Assembly (NCBI RefSeq): GCF_020034665.1
Contig: NZ_JAIQDI010000001.1
Coordinates: 3,410,001 to 3,474,000, forward strand
Direction of reading: 5' to 3'
Source of the DNA: Niabella beijingensis
GTDB lineage: Bacteria > Bacteroidota > Bacteroidia > Chitinophagales > Chitinophagaceae
Length of the DNA: 64,000 nucleotides
Position numbers and translations under genes: made by a program. Shown here piece after piece: positions 48,968 through 56,015 of this stretch. How positions within the stretch are numbered: the first letter of the stretch is position 1; each line of letters opens with the position of its first letter. The notes under the pieces were generated by a model. That model did not search any database and was not told where the DNA came from. It saw only the letters and a program-made list of their open reading frames with translations.

Positions 48968-48998
48968 ATTTTCTTATAGAAGGTGAATAAATTGCAGG

Positions 48999-49033
48999 CA
49001 AAGTTAACGCATCATGGTTAATTTGGTGACAAA
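48999..49033 (-). promoter_or_regulatory. Promoter of the succinate dehydrogenase operon
   Basis: Minus-strand TAACTTTG at 49006-48999 (exact TAnnTTTG) with a TTTG -33 box at 49033-49030, 23 bases apart. The sdhC ATG is 32 bases downstream. Confidence 0.5.
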
Positions 49034-49145
49034 AAAATGACAAGTTACCTGCCGGTGATGTGCTTTCCGGATGTTTCCGGATGCCGGGAAAGAAGATATT
49101 TAAGAAAACGCTATTTTAGTACCCTCACCAATTAAAAGTTTAAGT

Positions 49146-51635
49146 ATGAGCAACATCGCGGTTTATGAAAAGTACTTTGAAGACCCGCTTTCCCTTTCAG
49201 CGGATTTTACACAAACATTGAATAACACCAGTATCAAGAACCCGGACACCTGGTTCCCGGCCCTGGCCCTCCTGCAGCAAAAAGCAGGCGCCGGTGCTCC
49301 AAAGGAAGAACTGGCATTTCTTTTCGATCTGTTGTTCAAATCCAGTGCAGATCATACGGTGAGCGTTTATTTTTCAGCAGAAACATACGACTGGTTCTTT
49401 AAAAAAATGCTGGAAGTGCTTACAAGGGTGGGAGCAGTGTATCCGGAAGCCCTGCTGGAAAAAGCAGTGGCGCTGTTAATGGCACGCCGCGGCTACCGGG
49501 ATTATACGGAAGCGGAAAAGGCTTTTCAACAGGCGCTGGCAGCCGGCGTGGAAGCTGCGGCTCCCGTCTATTATTACTACCAGTATGTGGGGCTGATGCC
49601 CGGAGGGGATAAGGAAGTTGCGCTGGAAGAGCTGAAAAAACTGGCAGCTGCTGGCAATCCCTGGGCGCTGGTGTATGATGCGTTTTACCAGATATGGTTC
49701 AGCACCGGTTTTGAACTCACTCCTGCAATTGACCAGTTAAAAAACCACTCCGACCGGAAATTACAAAAGAATTATTATGATGTGCTCCAGGGATATTATG
49801 GTAAAAAAGGAGATAAGGAAAAACAGGTGGGGTTATTAAAGGAGTCCATCAGCCATTATGACGCGGCCTACCCGCGTTATGTGCTGGCAGAGATCTCCTG
49901 GCCGGAGGCTCAAACCGAAGAAGAAAAAACAGCAATACTAAAGGAACTGGAAAAAGCGTATAACGACGGTTCGATGGATGCTGCTACCAGTCTGGGTTTG
50001 AAATACCTGCCCCAGGAACCTAAAACGGCCCAGGACTATGAACGATCCATTTTCTGGCTGAAGCAAAGCTGGTTGTACGACAATGCATATGCGGCCTACC
50101 GCCTGGCCTACCTGTACCTGTACAATGAACTGGTGGCCGATGTGCCGGCAGGACTGCAACTCCTGGAGGCTGCCAAAGATGCCGGAAATATAGACGCTGC
50201 GATCGAATGGGCCGAGGTACATATCGAAGGCAGGTTTACCGAAATAAATAAAACGGTTACGCTCGACAGCTTTAATGAGCTACATACCAAACAGGTACCC
50301 TACGCTACTTACCGCCTGGGGCACTTTTATGAATATGGTGATCCCGATCTTGGTATTACCGCCGATCTGACCAGGGCATTTAATTATTATAAAGAGGCTG
50401 CAGACCAGCAACTGCCTGTTGCCCAGTATAATGTGGGACGGTTTCTTAAATACGGGTTTGATAACAATGAGCCGGATGTGGAAGCTTCCATACCCTATTT
50501 TACAAAAGCAGCGGAAGCAAACAATGCACAGGCGTGTACTGAACTGGGGCTGATCGCCGAGACCTCCGGACAACCGGATTACCGGCAGGCATTTGAGCAC
50601 TTCAGCAAGGCGGCCGAACTGGGATATCCCTATGCCAATTATATAAAAGGATTGTACCTGGAATATGATTATCACCAATCCGGCAAGACCGATCCGGGAG
50701 CGGCCGTACAATGCTACGAATATGCAGCCGGTTACAATGAGATGAATGCTGCGTATGAACTGGGCCGTTGTTATAAGTTCGGGACGGGAACACAGCAGGA
50801 CTTTGACAAAGCGATCGGGTACCTGAGAAAAGCGGCAGATGCCAACAATCCAAAAGCGCTTACGGAACTGGCGCTGAGTTATGAACGCGCAGAAGGCGTG
50901 ACAGAAGACCGGGACAAGGCGGTTGAATATATGGAGCGGGCCGCAGGTTTTAACTATGTATATGCACAGTATGCCACCGGCCGGTATTACCTGCATGGGT
51001 ATGTGCAGGTAAACAGCGCAAAGGGGCTGGAGTGGCTGGAGAAGGCAGCGGCGTATGAGTATCCGTATGCATTACTGGAGCTGGGCGATTATTATATGTT
51101 TGATTACGATCGGGTGGAACAGTATGATAAAGCCTTTGACTACTACCGGAGGGCCAAAGAGCAGCAGGTGTATTCGGATGGACTGGGGCTTTGCTATGAA
51201 TATGGTATCGGTGTGGAAACCGCGCCCGCCACGGCTTTTAATGAATACACACTTGCAGCAGAATACGGTAACAGCAATGCCAAGTACCGGCTGGGCCGTT
51301 GTTATTATGATGGGTTTGGTACCGACAAAAACCTGGAGACTGCCTTCCGCTGGTTTGGCGAAAGCGCCAATGAAGGGAATGATCATGCAAAACTGTACCT
51401 GGGCCGGCAGTACCTGAAAGGAGAAGGTATTCCGCGTCAGCCGGAAAAGGCGATACCATTATTTACAGAAGCGGCAGAGAACGAATCCGCTAATGCGCAA
51501 TACGAACTGGCCAATTGCTACCTGATGGGAGAAGGAGTGGATGAGGACGAACAAAAAGCAATGTACTGGTTTGAACGGGCGGCAGACAACGGCCATGAAG
51601 GCGCCAAAAAATTAACAGGAAGAAGAAGAAAATAA
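49146..51635 (+). CDS. Large Sel1-repeat (TPR-like) protein
   Basis: An 829-residue soluble protein, no signal peptide. From about residue 290 it is built of Sel1-like repeats: units of about 36 residues with patterns such as AAYRLAYLYLYNEL, AQYNVGRFLKYGF, AAYELGRCYKFGTGTQQDFDKAIGYLRKAA and AQYELANCYLMGEGVDEDEQKAMYWFERAA. At least ten such units can be traced by eye. Residues 1-290 are helical and TPR-like. Sel1 solenoids scaffold protein complexes. It is the first gene of a three-gene operon with an HSP90-type ATPase (1-base gap) and another helical protein, so it probably binds that chaperone or its clients. Confidence 0.85.
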   Translation: MSNIAVYEKYFEDPLSLSADFTQTLNNTSIKNPDTWFPALALLQQKAGAGAPKEELAFLFDLLFKSSADHTVSVYFSAETYDWFFKKMLEVLTRVGAVYPEALLEKAVALLMARRGYRDYTEAEKAFQQALAAGVEAAAPVYYYYQYVGLMPGGDKEVALEELKKLAAAGNPWALVYDAFYQIWFSTGFELTPAIDQLKNHSDRKLQKNYYDVLQGYYGKKGDKEKQVGLLKESISHYDAAYPRYVLAEISWPEAQTEEEKTAILKELEKAYNDGSMDAATSLGLKYLPQEPKTAQDYERSIFWLKQSWLYDNAYAAYRLAYLYLYNELVADVPAGLQLLEAAKDAGNIDAAIEWAEVHIEGRFTEINKTVTLDSFNELHTKQVPYATYRLGHFYEYGDPDLGITADLTRAFNYYKEAADQQLPVAQYNVGRFLKYGFDNNEPDVEASIPYFTKAAEANNAQACTELGLIAETSGQPDYRQAFEHFSKAAELGYPYANYIKGLYLEYDYHQSGKTDPGAAVQCYEYAAGYNEMNAAYELGRCYKFGTGTQQDFDKAIGYLRKAADANNPKALTELALSYERAEGVTEDRDKAVEYMERAAGFNYVYAQYATGRYYLHGYVQVNSAKGLEWLEKAAAYEYPYALLELGDYYMFDYDRVEQYDKAFDYYRRAKEQQVYSDGLGLCYEYGIGVETAPATAFNEYTLAAEYGNSNAKYRLGRCYYDGFGTDKNLETAFRWFGESANEGNDHAKLYLGRQYLKGEGIPRQPEKAIPLFTEAAENESANAQYELANCYLMGEGVDEDEQKAMYWFERAADNGHEGAKKLTGRRRK

Positions 51636-51636
51636 A

Positions 51637-53430
51637 ATGGAAGCATCAAACAACGAATACTATTCCTTCCAGGTAAACCTTCAGGGAATGATCAGTCTGC
51701 TGTCGGAACACCTGTACAGCAATCCCAATACATTTATAAGAGAGCTGCTCCAGAACGCGGTGGATGCCATAGCGGCGTTGCGCCAGCTGGATGAAGCGCT
51801 GGAGGGCGTGGTACGTATTGAATTGCCGGCGGCGGATAAACCTTCCTTTAGTTTTCAGGATAACGGCATCGGACTGAAAGAAAATGAGATACACGAATTC
51901 CTTTCCGTGATCGGAGAAAGCTCCAAACGGAAGAATGCGGAGGACGCGCGGCTCTTCATTGGTAAATTTGGTATCGGTCTGTTGTCCTGCTTTGTGGTAA
52001 GCGAGGCCATTACCATTGAAACCCGTTCGGCATTTGATCAGAAAGGATTCCGCTGGTCGGCTTTTAATGACGGGCGTTACCAGATCGATCCGGTTGACAA
52101 CCTTCCCATTGGCACCAGGGTATATCTGACGCCCAAGAAGAATTATGCACACCTGTTCCGGCCGGAGAATTTTATTCCCCAGATCCGGTTCTACGGGGAT
52201 GCGCTTCCGGAAAAGATAACCGTTGTTTCCAACGGGGAAGAAAAGCTGATCAATCCGGAGCCCCCGGTATGGCTGAACCCCGATGCCACAAGGGATGCCC
52301 TGTTACAGGCAGGCAAGGAGATCTTTCAATTGTCCTTCCTGGATGCGGTAAAACTGCATACGGACTCCGGCGAGTGTGAAGGTGTATTATACATCCTGCC
52401 TTATAAAGCCCAGTTTTCCGTAAAGCAGCACCACCGTCTTTATTTAAAGCGTATGTTCCTGGGCGAAGCGGATAACGGCTTATTACCCTCCTGGGCGTTT
52501 TTTGTAAAAATGGTGGTGAACAGCAACGGGCTCAGCGCCACTGCATCGCGGGAATCGCTGATGCAGAACGATCTGCTGCGTGCCACACGCAAAGAGATCG
52601 GGGAAACGCTAAAGACCTATCTCAGGAGCATCCGGGATATTGACCCCCAGGTATACCTGAAGATCATACAAACGCATTTCCTGCATTTAAAGGCCATGGC
52701 GGCGGAGGATGATGAGTTCCTCCGGCTGATACTGGATGATCTTCCCTTTGAGACCAATAAGGGGTTGCGGAGTTTTAAGAACATCAGCGAACAATTCCCT
52801 GTAATTTATTATTGTGCCGATTATGAAGCGTTCAAACAGGTACAGCGTATTGCAGAATTCCAGGGTGTGCTGGTGCTGAACGTGGCCTATACATTTGAAG
52901 AAGAACTGCTGAAGAAGGTAAAAAGCATCCGGAAGGAGCTCAACATACAGGAGATGTCCTCTGCCAGACTGCTGGACACTTTCGTAAACATCAGTGCAGA
53001 AGAGGAGGAACGTTACCGTCCCTTCCTGGATCGGCTGGCCGACTTTACACGGCCGCTTCATTGCACGGTAAGTTTAAAATATTTTGAACCGAAGGACACA
53101 CCTTCTATTTTTACCCGGGCGGATGAAGATTTTGCAGAAGCCACCATTAAAAAGTTAAAGGCCAGCGATAATCCCTTTGCCAGTGCACTGGGCAGCCTGC
53201 AGCAAAAACCGGAGCTGTCGAACCAGTTCTGTCTCAACATGAACAACGATCTGGTTCAGAACATGCTTACACTGGATGACGCGTATATGTTGCAGGCCAT
53301 TACAGAAGTGCTGTATGTGCAGGCATTGCTGATGGGCAAGCATCCGGTGAATGAAAAGCAGATGAACCTTTTTAACAGTGCCCTGCATTCGCTGCTGGTA
53401 ATGGGCATGAAAAATTTTATTCAGATCTAA
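51637..53430 (+). CDS. Divergent HSP90-family (HtpG-like) ATPase
   Basis: A 597-residue protein with an HSP90 (GHKL/Bergerat) ATP-binding domain at its N-terminus: RELLQNAVDA (Glu36, Asn40, Asp43), QDNGIGL (Asp75) and FIGKFGIGLLSCF (residues 107-118). The middle domain keeps SATASRESLMQND, the usual HtpG patch. It differs from canonical HtpG in length and in the C-terminal part, and is closer to the smaller HSP90-like proteins seen in actinobacteria. The catalytic and nucleotide residues look intact. Its placement between a Sel1-repeat and a helical-repeat gene, with one-base and 11-base spacing, suggests a dedicated chaperone machine. Confidence 0.88.
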   Translation: MEASNNEYYSFQVNLQGMISLLSEHLYSNPNTFIRELLQNAVDAIAALRQLDEALEGVVRIELPAADKPSFSFQDNGIGLKENEIHEFLSVIGESSKRKNAEDARLFIGKFGIGLLSCFVVSEAITIETRSAFDQKGFRWSAFNDGRYQIDPVDNLPIGTRVYLTPKKNYAHLFRPENFIPQIRFYGDALPEKITVVSNGEEKLINPEPPVWLNPDATRDALLQAGKEIFQLSFLDAVKLHTDSGECEGVLYILPYKAQFSVKQHHRLYLKRMFLGEADNGLLPSWAFFVKMVVNSNGLSATASRESLMQNDLLRATRKEIGETLKTYLRSIRDIDPQVYLKIIQTHFLHLKAMAAEDDEFLRLILDDLPFETNKGLRSFKNISEQFPVIYYCADYEAFKQVQRIAEFQGVLVLNVAYTFEEELLKKVKSIRKELNIQEMSSARLLDTFVNISAEEEERYRPFLDRLADFTRPLHCTVSLKYFEPKDTPSIFTRADEDFAEATIKKLKASDNPFASALGSLQQKPELSNQFCLNMNNDLVQNMLTLDDAYMLQAITEVLYVQALLMGKHPVNEKQMNLFNSALHSLLVMGMKNFIQI

Positions 53431-53441
53431 AATCAATACAC

Positions 53442-54512
53442 ATGTTGTATACGTTAAAAATTCAGAAATTATTAAACCAGGGGGAGGAGCTTTCCCTGCC
53501 GGAGGAAAAAGTAAAACTGCTGCTGCAGGCAATAAAGATTGCCGACGAGAATGAGGATATCGAATGGGGGTATGACCTGCGGCTGATGCTGATCGAAACA
53601 GAGCGGGATGTAACGTTTACAAAGGAATCGATACCGGCTTTTGCCTGGATCCTGAATGCCTGTGACGGTCATCCCGACCTGTTTGCAGAAACGGACTTTT
53701 TATGGCAGTACAAATGGATGATGGCTGATCTGTATGACAATCCGCAGGTTTCAAAAGAACAGGTGCATGCAGCGCTGGAAGATTTTAAAATCAGACTGCA
53801 GCGGAATGGATATGGGTTACGGGCCTATTATAATGAGCTGTATAATGATGCCCTGGTGCAAAAGGATACCGCGATGATACAGGAATATGGCGAAAAACTG
53901 AAGATGGTGACCCGCGATTCGATGAGCGATTGTGAAGCCTGTGAAATGGATGCCGAAGTGAGCGCTACTTTTGAGCTGCAGGGTTTTGAGCAGGGACATG
54001 AACAGGCATTGCCATTACTGGAAAAACAATACACCTGTGTACATGTGCCGATGCGTACCCTGGTGAACCTGAGCTACGAGGCCTTTAAAAATAACCAGCC
54101 GGAACTGGCGAAGGAATTCTGCTCAAAAGCAGAAACGGAACTGGAGGCATTAACACATGATGCTTCGGCATTATTGTCGGAAGTAAAACTGCTGGTGTTC
54201 CGGACCGCTGAAGACCCCGTTGCCGGAAAAGAGCGGGTGGAGCAGCTGTTGCCGCGGATAACGGGAAACCAGGGACGGAAAGTATTCCAGATGGCGCTTT
54301 ACCTGATTGAGATCCTGCGGCAGTTTCCGGAAGCCACGCCGTTCAGCCTGTTGCTGAAAGAAGATCATGCCCTGTTCCGGTCCGGGAAGACGGAATATAC
54401 GCGCGATGAGCTGCTGGGCTATTTTGAACAGGTAGCCCGTGATATAGCCGGATTGTTTGACCGGCGCAACGGGAACAATAATTTTATGAAGCAACTGGAC
54501 GCGATTATCTGA
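53442..54512 (+). CDS. Helical TPR-like protein, partner of the HSP90-type ATPase
   Basis: A 356-residue soluble protein, no signal peptide. It is almost wholly alpha-helical, with TPR-like pairs (LLLQAIKIADENEDIEWGYDLRLML, RTLVNLSYEAFKNNQPELAKEFCSKAETELEAL). A Cys-x2-Cys (SDCEACEMD) and DGHPDLFAETDFLWQYKWMMADLYDNP are notable patches. I recognise no named domain. It ends the operon, with the terminator at 54672. Function unknown; the partnership with the two preceding genes is inferred from spacing. Confidence 0.75.
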   Translation: MLYTLKIQKLLNQGEELSLPEEKVKLLLQAIKIADENEDIEWGYDLRLMLIETERDVTFTKESIPAFAWILNACDGHPDLFAETDFLWQYKWMMADLYDNPQVSKEQVHAALEDFKIRLQRNGYGLRAYYNELYNDALVQKDTAMIQEYGEKLKMVTRDSMSDCEACEMDAEVSATFELQGFEQGHEQALPLLEKQYTCVHVPMRTLVNLSYEAFKNNQPELAKEFCSKAETELEALTHDASALLSEVKLLVFRTAEDPVAGKERVEQLLPRITGNQGRKVFQMALYLIEILRQFPEATPFSLLLKEDHALFRSGKTEYTRDELLGYFEQVARDIAGLFDRRNGNNNFMKQLDAII

Positions 54513-54667: not shown

Positions 54668-54710
54668 TAAAAACAGCGGACCGGTACAATCGGTCCGCTG
54701 TTCGTTTTTA
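54668..54710. terminator. Bidirectional terminator between the HSP90-like operon and pepP
   Basis: A perfect 12-bp stem (54672-54683 with 54691-54702), 7-base loop, A-run before and T-run after. It serves the convergent operon and pepP. Confidence 0.9.
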
Positions 54711-54725
54711 ATACTGCTGCTGTAT

Positions 54726-56015
54726 TTAACTGTTCATCAGGCTTTCTATATCATCTGCTTCTATGGGCATCGTCTTCATCAGATCGATATTGCCATTGCG
54801 GGTAAGCAGGAAATTATTTTCGATGCGGATGCCCAGCTGTTCGTCCTCGATGTAAATGCCGGGTTCGATGGTGAGCACCATGCCGGCTTTCAGCGGAGTG
54901 CGGAAGGGTCCGAGATCGTGCACATCAATACCCAGATGATGGCTGATGCCATGGTAGAGGTATTTTCGGTAGGCCCGGTTCTCCTGGTCCTCGTTCTTAA
55001 TATCCGTTTTGGTCAGCAGCCCCAGCTTTATAAATTCCTTGGTAGCCTCATGGCCCATTTTTTCATGATAGTCCACAATGGTGATGCCGGGCTTCAGTAT
55101 GGAGGCTGCATAGCGGTGTAGCCGCAAACAGGCATTGTATACTTCTTTCTGGCGTTTGGTAAACCTTCCGTTTACAGGAACGGTACGGGTAAGGTCGGCA
55201 TTGTATCCGCCGTATTCGGCACCAAAATCCATCAGGATCAGCTCACCGTCCAGGCATTGCTGGTTATTGCTTACATAATGCAGGGTGCGGGCGCGGTCGC
55301 CACTGGCAATGATGCTGCCATAACCTTCCCTTGTGGCACGGTTGCTGAGAAAGGAATGCAGGATCTCTGCTTCAATTTCAAATTCCCAGACGCCGGGTTT
55401 GATGAACTGCAATAAGCGGCGAAAGGTTTTTTCGGTAATGCTGATCGCCTGTCTGATCACTTCCACCTCTTCCGGTGTTTTTATGGCCCGCAGTTCTTTC
55501 AGCAGCGGTGCCGCACGTTTGTACTGATGCAACGGGAATTTTTCTTTCAGCTCTTTTATATAACGGTACTGACGGGTCTCGATCCAGGAGCTCTTCCGGT
55601 CGTTCTCATTGGTGTCGAGGTAAATGGATTCAGCAGCGTGGATCCAGGAGGTTAGCAGGGGTGCCAGGCTGTCCAGCCAAACAATGGTCTTCATGCCGCT
55701 GATGGCAGTGGCTTCATTTTCGCGCAGCCGTTTCCCGTCCCATTTTTCTTTCAGTTCATTCGGGCGCACCAATACCAGCACTTCGCGGTATTTGGGATCG
55801 GGATTGTCCGGGTAAAGGAGCACCATGCTGTCTTCCTGTTGGATTCCGGACAGCCAGAACAGGTTACTGTTGGGTTTATAACGGTAAAGCGCATCGCCGT
55901 TTTCGGGAACTTCATCATTAGCTACAAACAGCGCAATGGTATTGCGTTCCATTTTTTCGGTGAACCGCTTCCGGTTCTTGATAAAGATCTGAGGATCCAG
56001 TGGTAAATATTTCAT
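54726..56015 (-). CDS. pepP: Xaa-Pro aminopeptidase (aminopeptidase P)
   Basis: Removes the first residue from peptides with Pro at position two. M24B pita-bread domain with the metal ligands in LMDFGAEYGGYNADLTRT (two Asp), HGISHHLGIDVHD (His), VLTIEPGIYIED (Glu) and IRIENNFLLT (Glu). The N-terminal domain includes NRKRFTEKMERNTIALFVAN. 429 residues, normal, no signal peptide. It is convergent with the HSP90-like operon. Confidence 0.94.
   Translation of the reverse strand: MKYLPLDPQIFIKNRKRFTEKMERNTIALFVANDEVPENGDALYRYKPNSNLFWLSGIQQEDSMVLLYPDNPDPKYREVLVLVRPNELKEKWDGKRLRENEATAISGMKTIVWLDSLAPLLTSWIHAAESIYLDTNENDRKSSWIETRQYRYIKELKEKFPLHQYKRAAPLLKELRAIKTPEEVEVIRQAISITEKTFRRLLQFIKPGVWEFEIEAEILHSFLSNRATREGYGSIIASGDRARTLHYVSNNQQCLDGELILMDFGAEYGGYNADLTRTVPVNGRFTKRQKEVYNACLRLHRYAASILKPGITIVDYHEKMGHEATKEFIKLGLLTKTDIKNEDQENRAYRKYLYHGISHHLGIDVHDLGPFRTPLKAGMVLTIEPGIYIEDEQLGIRIENNFLLTRNGNIDLMKTMPIEADDIESLMNS

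Follow-up and report, generated by a model that had tools for sequence, protein, structure and literature searches.

Co-chaperones built of tetratricopeptide repeats (TPRs), such as Hop/Sti1, FKBP51/52 and Tom70, are a hallmark of eukaryotic HSP90; the HtpG of Escherichia coli works with DnaK directly, and we know of no TPR helper for it. Whether a bacterial HSP90 may own such a helper is the question raised by an operon of Niabella beijingensis, located in the stretch of 64,000 nucleotides analysed here (the window). An earlier note on this DNA had described three forward-strand open reading frames (ORFs) separated by 1 and 11 bases, and proposed that they may encode a bacterial HSP90 along with TPR co-chaperones dedicated to it. 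The three frames were found exactly as described: a Sel1-repeat protein (ORF1), an HSP90-family ATPase (ORF2) and a TPR-type protein of an unnamed family (ORF3, hereafter the partner). As argued below, the operon probably encodes an HSP90 of the NF010683 (Group C) lineage, acting as an ATP-driven clamp, together with its own TPR-type co-chaperone. The proposal thus gains strong genomic support for the HSP90-partner pair, but its Sel1 component turns out to be specific to one clade.

An HSP90 apart from canonical HtpG

ORF2 passes the cut-off of the NCBIfam family NF010683 (PRK14083; 630.2 bits over residues 9-593, cut-off 455) and stays below that of canonical HtpG (NF003555; 194.7 bits, cut-off 371), from which a tree separates it as well. 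In that tree, with midpoint root and a program warning of long branches, the branch that holds ORF2, hereafter group C, stands apart from canonical HtpG with a support of 100/100 (100/99 in a second tree). ORF2 and canonical HtpG agree in the order of their domains, the ATP site and the arginine of the middle domain. Pfam recognises HSP90 (43.3 bits) and HATPase_c_3 (42.5 bits) in the protein, and its relatives by sequence in the PDB are HtpG, TRAP1 and HSP90s. The predicted model has an HSP90 fold across its full length (pLDDT 84.7, with four short stretches below 50), and Foldseek matched it to full-length HSP90s, including the HtpG chain 9a6t_B (E 1.7e-39, 654 columns, TM 0.68, root-mean-square deviation 9.1). 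The ATP site, which the earlier note had read as intact, is so by alignment (E36, N40, D75, G77, G79 and G159), as is the catalytic arginine R305 of the middle domain; when 31 group-C rows were aligned with 16 canonical ones (E. coli, Ruminococcus and 14 Bacteroidota carriers), these residues proved to be kept in 31/31 group-C rows, except for D75 (30/31).

We take ORF2 to be a Group C member in the HTPG classification of Chen et al. (2006; PMC1525184). Passages of that paper distinguish Groups A, B and C, and describe S. coelicolor and B. fragilis as having two copies that fall into different groups. NF010683 is equated here with Group C because size and length, taxa and depth match, and three Streptomyces plasmid copies stand in our tree in place of the S. 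coelicolor HTPG2 and B. fragilis HTPG2 of that work. Like Group C, ORF2 is a short HSP90 whose branch is distinct from that of the canonical HtpG encoded in the same genomes. The protein had been called non-canonical, which holds in that it lies outside canonical HtpG by score and tree; it is, on the other hand, a member of a catalogued family and not a new one. Gene neighbours go unmentioned in those passages of PMC1525184; what we add to them is the partner gene and the Sel1 gene. Moreover, no report of a TPR partner for an NF010683-type HSP90 was found in the open-licence PubMed Central literature as judged by titles and abstract openings.

A canonical htpG, whose presence elsewhere in the genome the earlier note had left to be checked, does exist in the 6.59-Mb genome of the organism, at C1:841198. 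Canonical HtpG is likewise present in 14/15 Bacteroidota carriers (the exception being genome G504) and in the Ruminococcus genome, and therefore the module appears specialised in the Bacteroidota rather than a replacement for HtpG. The 2.9-Mb Listeria record gave no PF00183 match, and hence no sign of a canonical HtpG, although this profile missed the Listeria group-C gene too. The Corynebacterium glutamicum control genome has an NF010683 match but none to PF00183.

A conserved HSP90-partner pair

The HSP90 and its partner form a conserved two-gene pair. A partner-family gene adjoins the HSP90 gene in 25/25 group-C loci, which comprise the window, 23 neighbourhoods and the contig L109, and belong to Bacteroidota, Bacillota and Actinomycetota; 24 neighbourhoods were examined, and one from Pseudanabaena (L048) was set aside because the tree places it outside group C. 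The predicted spacing between the two genes ranges from -11 to +120 bases, with GC-rich Streptomyces-like loci, where some ORF starts are over-extended, excluded. Adjacency is kept in a locus with reversed gene order (L063), and six loci carry at least two partner copies together beside the HSP90 (L005 of Ruminococcus, L047 of Listeria and L065-L068 of genus g17). The two genes are therefore found together in other genomes, one of the points on which the earlier note had staked its proposal, and its mention of actinobacterial relatives lying near TPR genes agrees with the Streptomyces relatives examined, which adjoin TPR-type genes. As to the module of three genes that it had described, the pair stands (25/25), but the Sel1 gene is present in 10/25 loci, all with HSP90s of a single clade.

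Mobile elements were also considered. In a plasmid collection, the best 6 of 304 matching records (32-35% identity, 97-98% cover) all have the partner, and the seventh opened was L048; searched in the opposite direction, the Listeria partner matched 8 records of this collection, 6/8 of which are the group-C records. Among the best 10 of 61 matching records in a phage collection, the top three are short contigs without annotation (6.6, 1.6 and 1.5 kb), one of which, L109, was examined and groups with Streptomyces in the tree; a Salmonella record from this collection was examined too. On the basis of these records, carriage of group-C HSP90 by phages was rejected.

Genome samples revealed the same association. 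NF010683 and the partner profile A1 each matched 4/295 genomes of the class sample, 2/147 of the family sample and 8/150 of genus g17, and in each case the same four, two and eight genomes; a ninth g17 genome shows a 19-bit partial A1 match. These samples overlap, with the window's own genome counted in two of them. Were partner carriers distributed at random, with kinship ignored, such overlap would have a probability of 3e-9 (class), 9e-5 (family) and 2e-13 (g17). In g17, every full partner match lies at an HSP90 save for one in G736; this match is located at the start of a contig, and the contig with the HSP90 of G736 breaks off behind the first copy of the partner. Three loci (L040-L042) were first found through the partner search, and the class sample yields the same genomes when searched with the HSP90; family f51 was surveyed on account of one of the three, and 4/13 of its genomes hold an NF010683 match above cut-off, compared with 2/296 in the phylum sample and 0/86 in family f17, where more group-C members were sought.

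The two genes have also evolved in parallel. Among the 15 genomes having group-C HSP90, partner and canonical HtpG, HSP90 and partner distances correlate with a Spearman coefficient of 0.77, versus 0.35 and 0.39 for each of them against canonical HtpG; once canonical HtpG is controlled for, the rank partial correlation is 0.73, a value reached by 0/5000 permutations. An identical ladder, G368,(G475,(G504,(G289,G833))), occurs in the HSP90 and partner trees. Moreover, g17 contains two HSP90 lineages (G289 and G833 versus six other genomes), each with its own partner lineage, and canonical HtpG places the genomes of both as close kin. Altogether, the agreement between the HSP90 and partner trees exceeds what the species signal would give.

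The partner is a TPR-type solenoid

Pfam yields no match for ORF3 at E 0.01, and its description as TPR-like is borne out by two other lines of evidence. The partner-family profile matches designed PPR/TPR structures (E 5e-10), and the predicted AlphaFold model is a TPR-type alpha-solenoid over its full length (pLDDT 94.8). Foldseek alone gave nothing under 1e-3 for this model, and the VIA-align matches indicate fold class, not function. In Listeria, the homologue scores 26.1 with Pfam TPR_8, above the cut-off of 25.7. With respect to eukaryotic co-chaperones, the family has no sequence match to them in the PDB list and matches TPR/PPR proteins in general. Across phyla (46 rows), some residues are invariant or nearly so (R47, W92, R342; D340, N343). 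In a second partner copy of Ruminococcus (L005:10889-13183), the solenoid domain is fused with a stretch that matches DUF4026 and DUF2314 below threshold.

A Sel1-repeat protein and a C-terminal extension in one clade

The Sel1 gene precedes the HSP90 gene in the window and in 9/23 neighbourhoods, all of them in one HSP90 clade (support 100/100), and is a clade-specific add-on to the two-gene core. A specific Sel1 profile (A2) matched 1/295 genomes of the class sample, the window's own alone (E 1e-60), and hence no orphan, in what is a thin test because the three other carriers of that sample are without the Sel1 gene. ORF1 ends in a basic C-terminal tail (GRRRK; basic run at window positions 51618-51632), and a run of Arg/Lys also ends 8/9 other Sel1 proteins, the exception being that of L067. 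Such basic tails (e.g., RKRRR; L003, L004, L061, L064-L066, L068, L069 and the window) are unexplained by the repeats. The L067 frame (L067:4972-7320, genome G768) stops early, 165 bases 5' of the HSP90 gene, with a tail unlike that of its close relative L065, and may be broken.

The HSP90s of the same clade carry a C-terminal extension. A tail of the form [VI][ML]GM..F[IL] plus 2-3 residues ends the HSP90s of all 10 Sel1-bearing loci; the 14 group-C rows outside the clade have tails of 3-22 residues, the motif being in none, and the 7 other rows of the clade (P rows, of unknown gene context) show tail variants of 10-14 residues. In the predicted model this tail extends the last helix at low confidence (residues 591-597, mean pLDDT 62). 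Its reading as a docking peptide similar to MEEVD was considered, given that the tail is clade-specific and conserved, but was set aside in view of its modelling as a helix extension.

A second HSP90-TPR gene pair in gammaproteobacteria

A second gene pair, made of an HSP90-like and a downstream TPR-like gene, was observed in Pseudomonas (L112:4881-9122), Salmonella (L113:3983-8130) and Xanthomonas (L114:3947-8170). The TPR-like gene lies directly downstream in 3/3 loci opened, with gaps of 36, 2 and 24 bases, and its product (764-774 aa) shows sub-threshold TPR matches in the two proteins tested and is annotated as tetratricopeptide in Xanthomonas; this protein of ~765 aa is of another family than the partner. 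The HSP90-like proteins score 264-286 bits with the group-C profile built here and join group C with a support of 95/85 under the midpoint root, and the Pseudomonas copy reaches 292.9 bits with NF010683, under its cut-off of 455.

On a Pseudanabaena plasmid, the locus L048 set aside above encodes an HSP90-like protein of 877 aa (L048:6932-9565) whose C-terminal stretch weakly matches a CAP12/Pycsar TIR domain (19.5 bits versus a cut-off of 24.7). A TIR-domain gene is found nearby and a TPR gene two genes on, and the protein is a possible HSP90-effector fusion.

Mechanism and alternative explanations

In the mechanism that we propose, the partner would bind the HSP90 by some means other than MEEVD, because this motif is absent, and would either deliver a defined set of clients or tune the ATPase cycle of the HSP90; in one clade, the Sel1-repeat protein, of a TPR-like class, would have been added as a second adaptor. 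A broader picture, to be held more tentatively and which we rate as possible rather than probable, is that of an old bacterial HSP90 lineage working with dedicated TPR-solenoid co-chaperones in Bacteroidota, Bacillota and Actinomycetota, and with another TPR family in gammaproteobacteria, with a Sel1-type adaptor and a new C-terminal extension joining in one clade.

Several points weigh against these proposals. The role of co-chaperone is one that we infer from genomics. Eukaryotic HSP90 has the MEEVD peptide and the window HSP90 ends in NFIQI, and EEVD was found in none of the last 8 residues of 48 aligned HSP90 rows. Passages of a review (PMC11687934) assign the MEEVD-TPR link to eukaryotic cytosolic HSP90, passages of PMC9312948 describe TRAP1, like HtpG, as devoid of EEVD, and those of PMC10269695 report the association of M. 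tuberculosis HtpG with DnaJ2. The association of tail and Sel1 gene, being confined to one clade, possibly reflects one evolutionary event and may serve as a lead only. Homology between the gammaproteobacterial TPR protein and the partner is unsupported (HHalign probability 9%), and no HSP90 gene lies within 4 kb of a Nonomuraea relative of the former. Records of Actinomyces oris and Priestia megaterium carry partner-type genes with no HSP90 closer than 6 kb, other replicons being outside this search, and two control genomes matching NF010683, Deinobacterium chartae and C. glutamicum, stand outside the partner count. A protein search, which carries no gene context and shows no linkage, returned at least 4077 HSP90 relatives, canonical HtpG unseparated, versus 51 partner rows, figures not taken as a count because the search reaches only relatives with shared exact words. 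Finally, in the comparison of distances, those between far pairs of partners saturate at a ceiling.

The leading alternative, unlikely in our opinion yet the strongest of those considered, is that both the partner and the Sel1 protein act as clients of this HSP90 alone: large solenoids that carry out the real task and need the co-encoded HSP90, as a private chaperone, for their folding or stability. Adjacency and co-inheritance fit this explanation equally well, and the multiplication and divergence of partner copies beside one HSP90, as well as the location of partner domains at the N-terminus of longer proteins in Streptomyces and Ruminococcus, are what working effectors might show. Against it, though not decisively, the conserved partner residues (R47, W92 and R342, together with D340 and N343) suggest a binding site rather than a mere client, and a client need not be confined to HSP90 carriers, as the partner is in the three samples bar the 19-bit match. 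We give a smaller chance still to the partner being a ligand- or peptide-sensing switch, a solenoid similar to those of MalT, NprR or Rap that would turn the HSP90 on or off. That the genes are ordinary operon neighbours without functional link seems improbable: unrelated genes can share operons and partner-type genes without a nearby HSP90 exist, but the adjacency survives across phyla, order reversal and duplication, and the gene trees match. Least plausible of all is a defence or conflict module composed of a GHKL ATPase and helical-repeat sensors, to which the patchy distribution (4/295, 2/147 and 8/150) and weak matches of the HSP90 ATPase domain to TmtA of PADLOC (best 46.5 bits) might point, since no catalytic effector domain is recognised in the window trio, the PADLOC matches are weak, partial and restricted to the ATPase domain (TmtA model positions 25-127 of 1302, with no full-length match), the ORFs beside the window operon reappear at two Niabella loci and resemble housekeeping genes, and the location is stable, the same kind of ORF (..YIAKRYAF..) lying upstream in six of six Sel1-bearing g17 loci.

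The locus and its flanks

Table 1. Positions of the operon's genes, protein motifs and flanking elements in the window.
Feature	Position	Strand	Remarks
Upstream region with AAAACGCTATTTTAGTACCCTCACCAA block, candidate promoter region	48968..49145	+	AAAACGCTATTTTAGTACCCTCACCAA identical in window and two Niabella loci (alignment)
ORF1, Sel1-repeat protein	49146..51635	+	829 aa; Pfam Sel1 230.5 bits, cut-off 30.7
ORF2, HSP90-family ATPase of NF010683/PRK14083 type	51637..53430	+	597 aa; NF010683 630.2 bits
ATP-site stretch E36-N40	51742..51756	+	E34/N38 of E. coli HtpG in the alignment; both residues in 31/31 group-C rows
Glycine-rich motif GKFGIG, residues 109-114	51961..51978	+	G109, F111, G112, I113, G114 invariant in 51 rows
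Middle-domain arginine R305	52549..52551	+	aligned with E. coli HtpG R336; R in 31/31 group-C rows
HSP90 C-terminal extension VMGMKNFIQI	53398..53427	+	window HSP90
ORF3, partner, TPR-type alpha-solenoid of unnamed family	53442..54512	+	356 aa; alignments A1/A3
Terminator-like hairpin after operon	54672..54702	both	14-pair stem, T-rich ends

Gene order and nearest flanks of the window are the same in two other Niabella loci (L003 and L004), and comparison of the three revealed purifying selection on all three genes (dN/dS 0.04-0.09 with dS about 0.4-1.3). The single terminator that had been reported after the operon corresponds to the hairpin of Table 1, which forms 14 pairs on one strand and 13 on the other, while the remaining sites of the scan have only 5-6. 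The number of terminator-like sites is no more than expected by chance, since 9 were found versus 7.2 (standard deviation 2.8) in shuffled sequences. Its presence on both strands makes it possible that the hairpin is shared with the convergent gene at 54726-56015; placed between two convergent genes, it is likely a bidirectional shared terminator.

Significance

The finding of the partner beside the HSP90 in several phyla suggests that some bacteria own HSP90 helpers, as animals and plants do. A simple bacterial pair of two proteins would make the contribution of a TPR partner to the HSP90 cycle addressable without dozens of other co-chaperones, and would bear on whether the alliance between HSP90 and TPR proteins predates eukaryotes or arose repeatedly. 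Moreover, it would hint at what an unnamed protein family does, and at the role of the second HSP90 that some bacteria keep beside HtpG.

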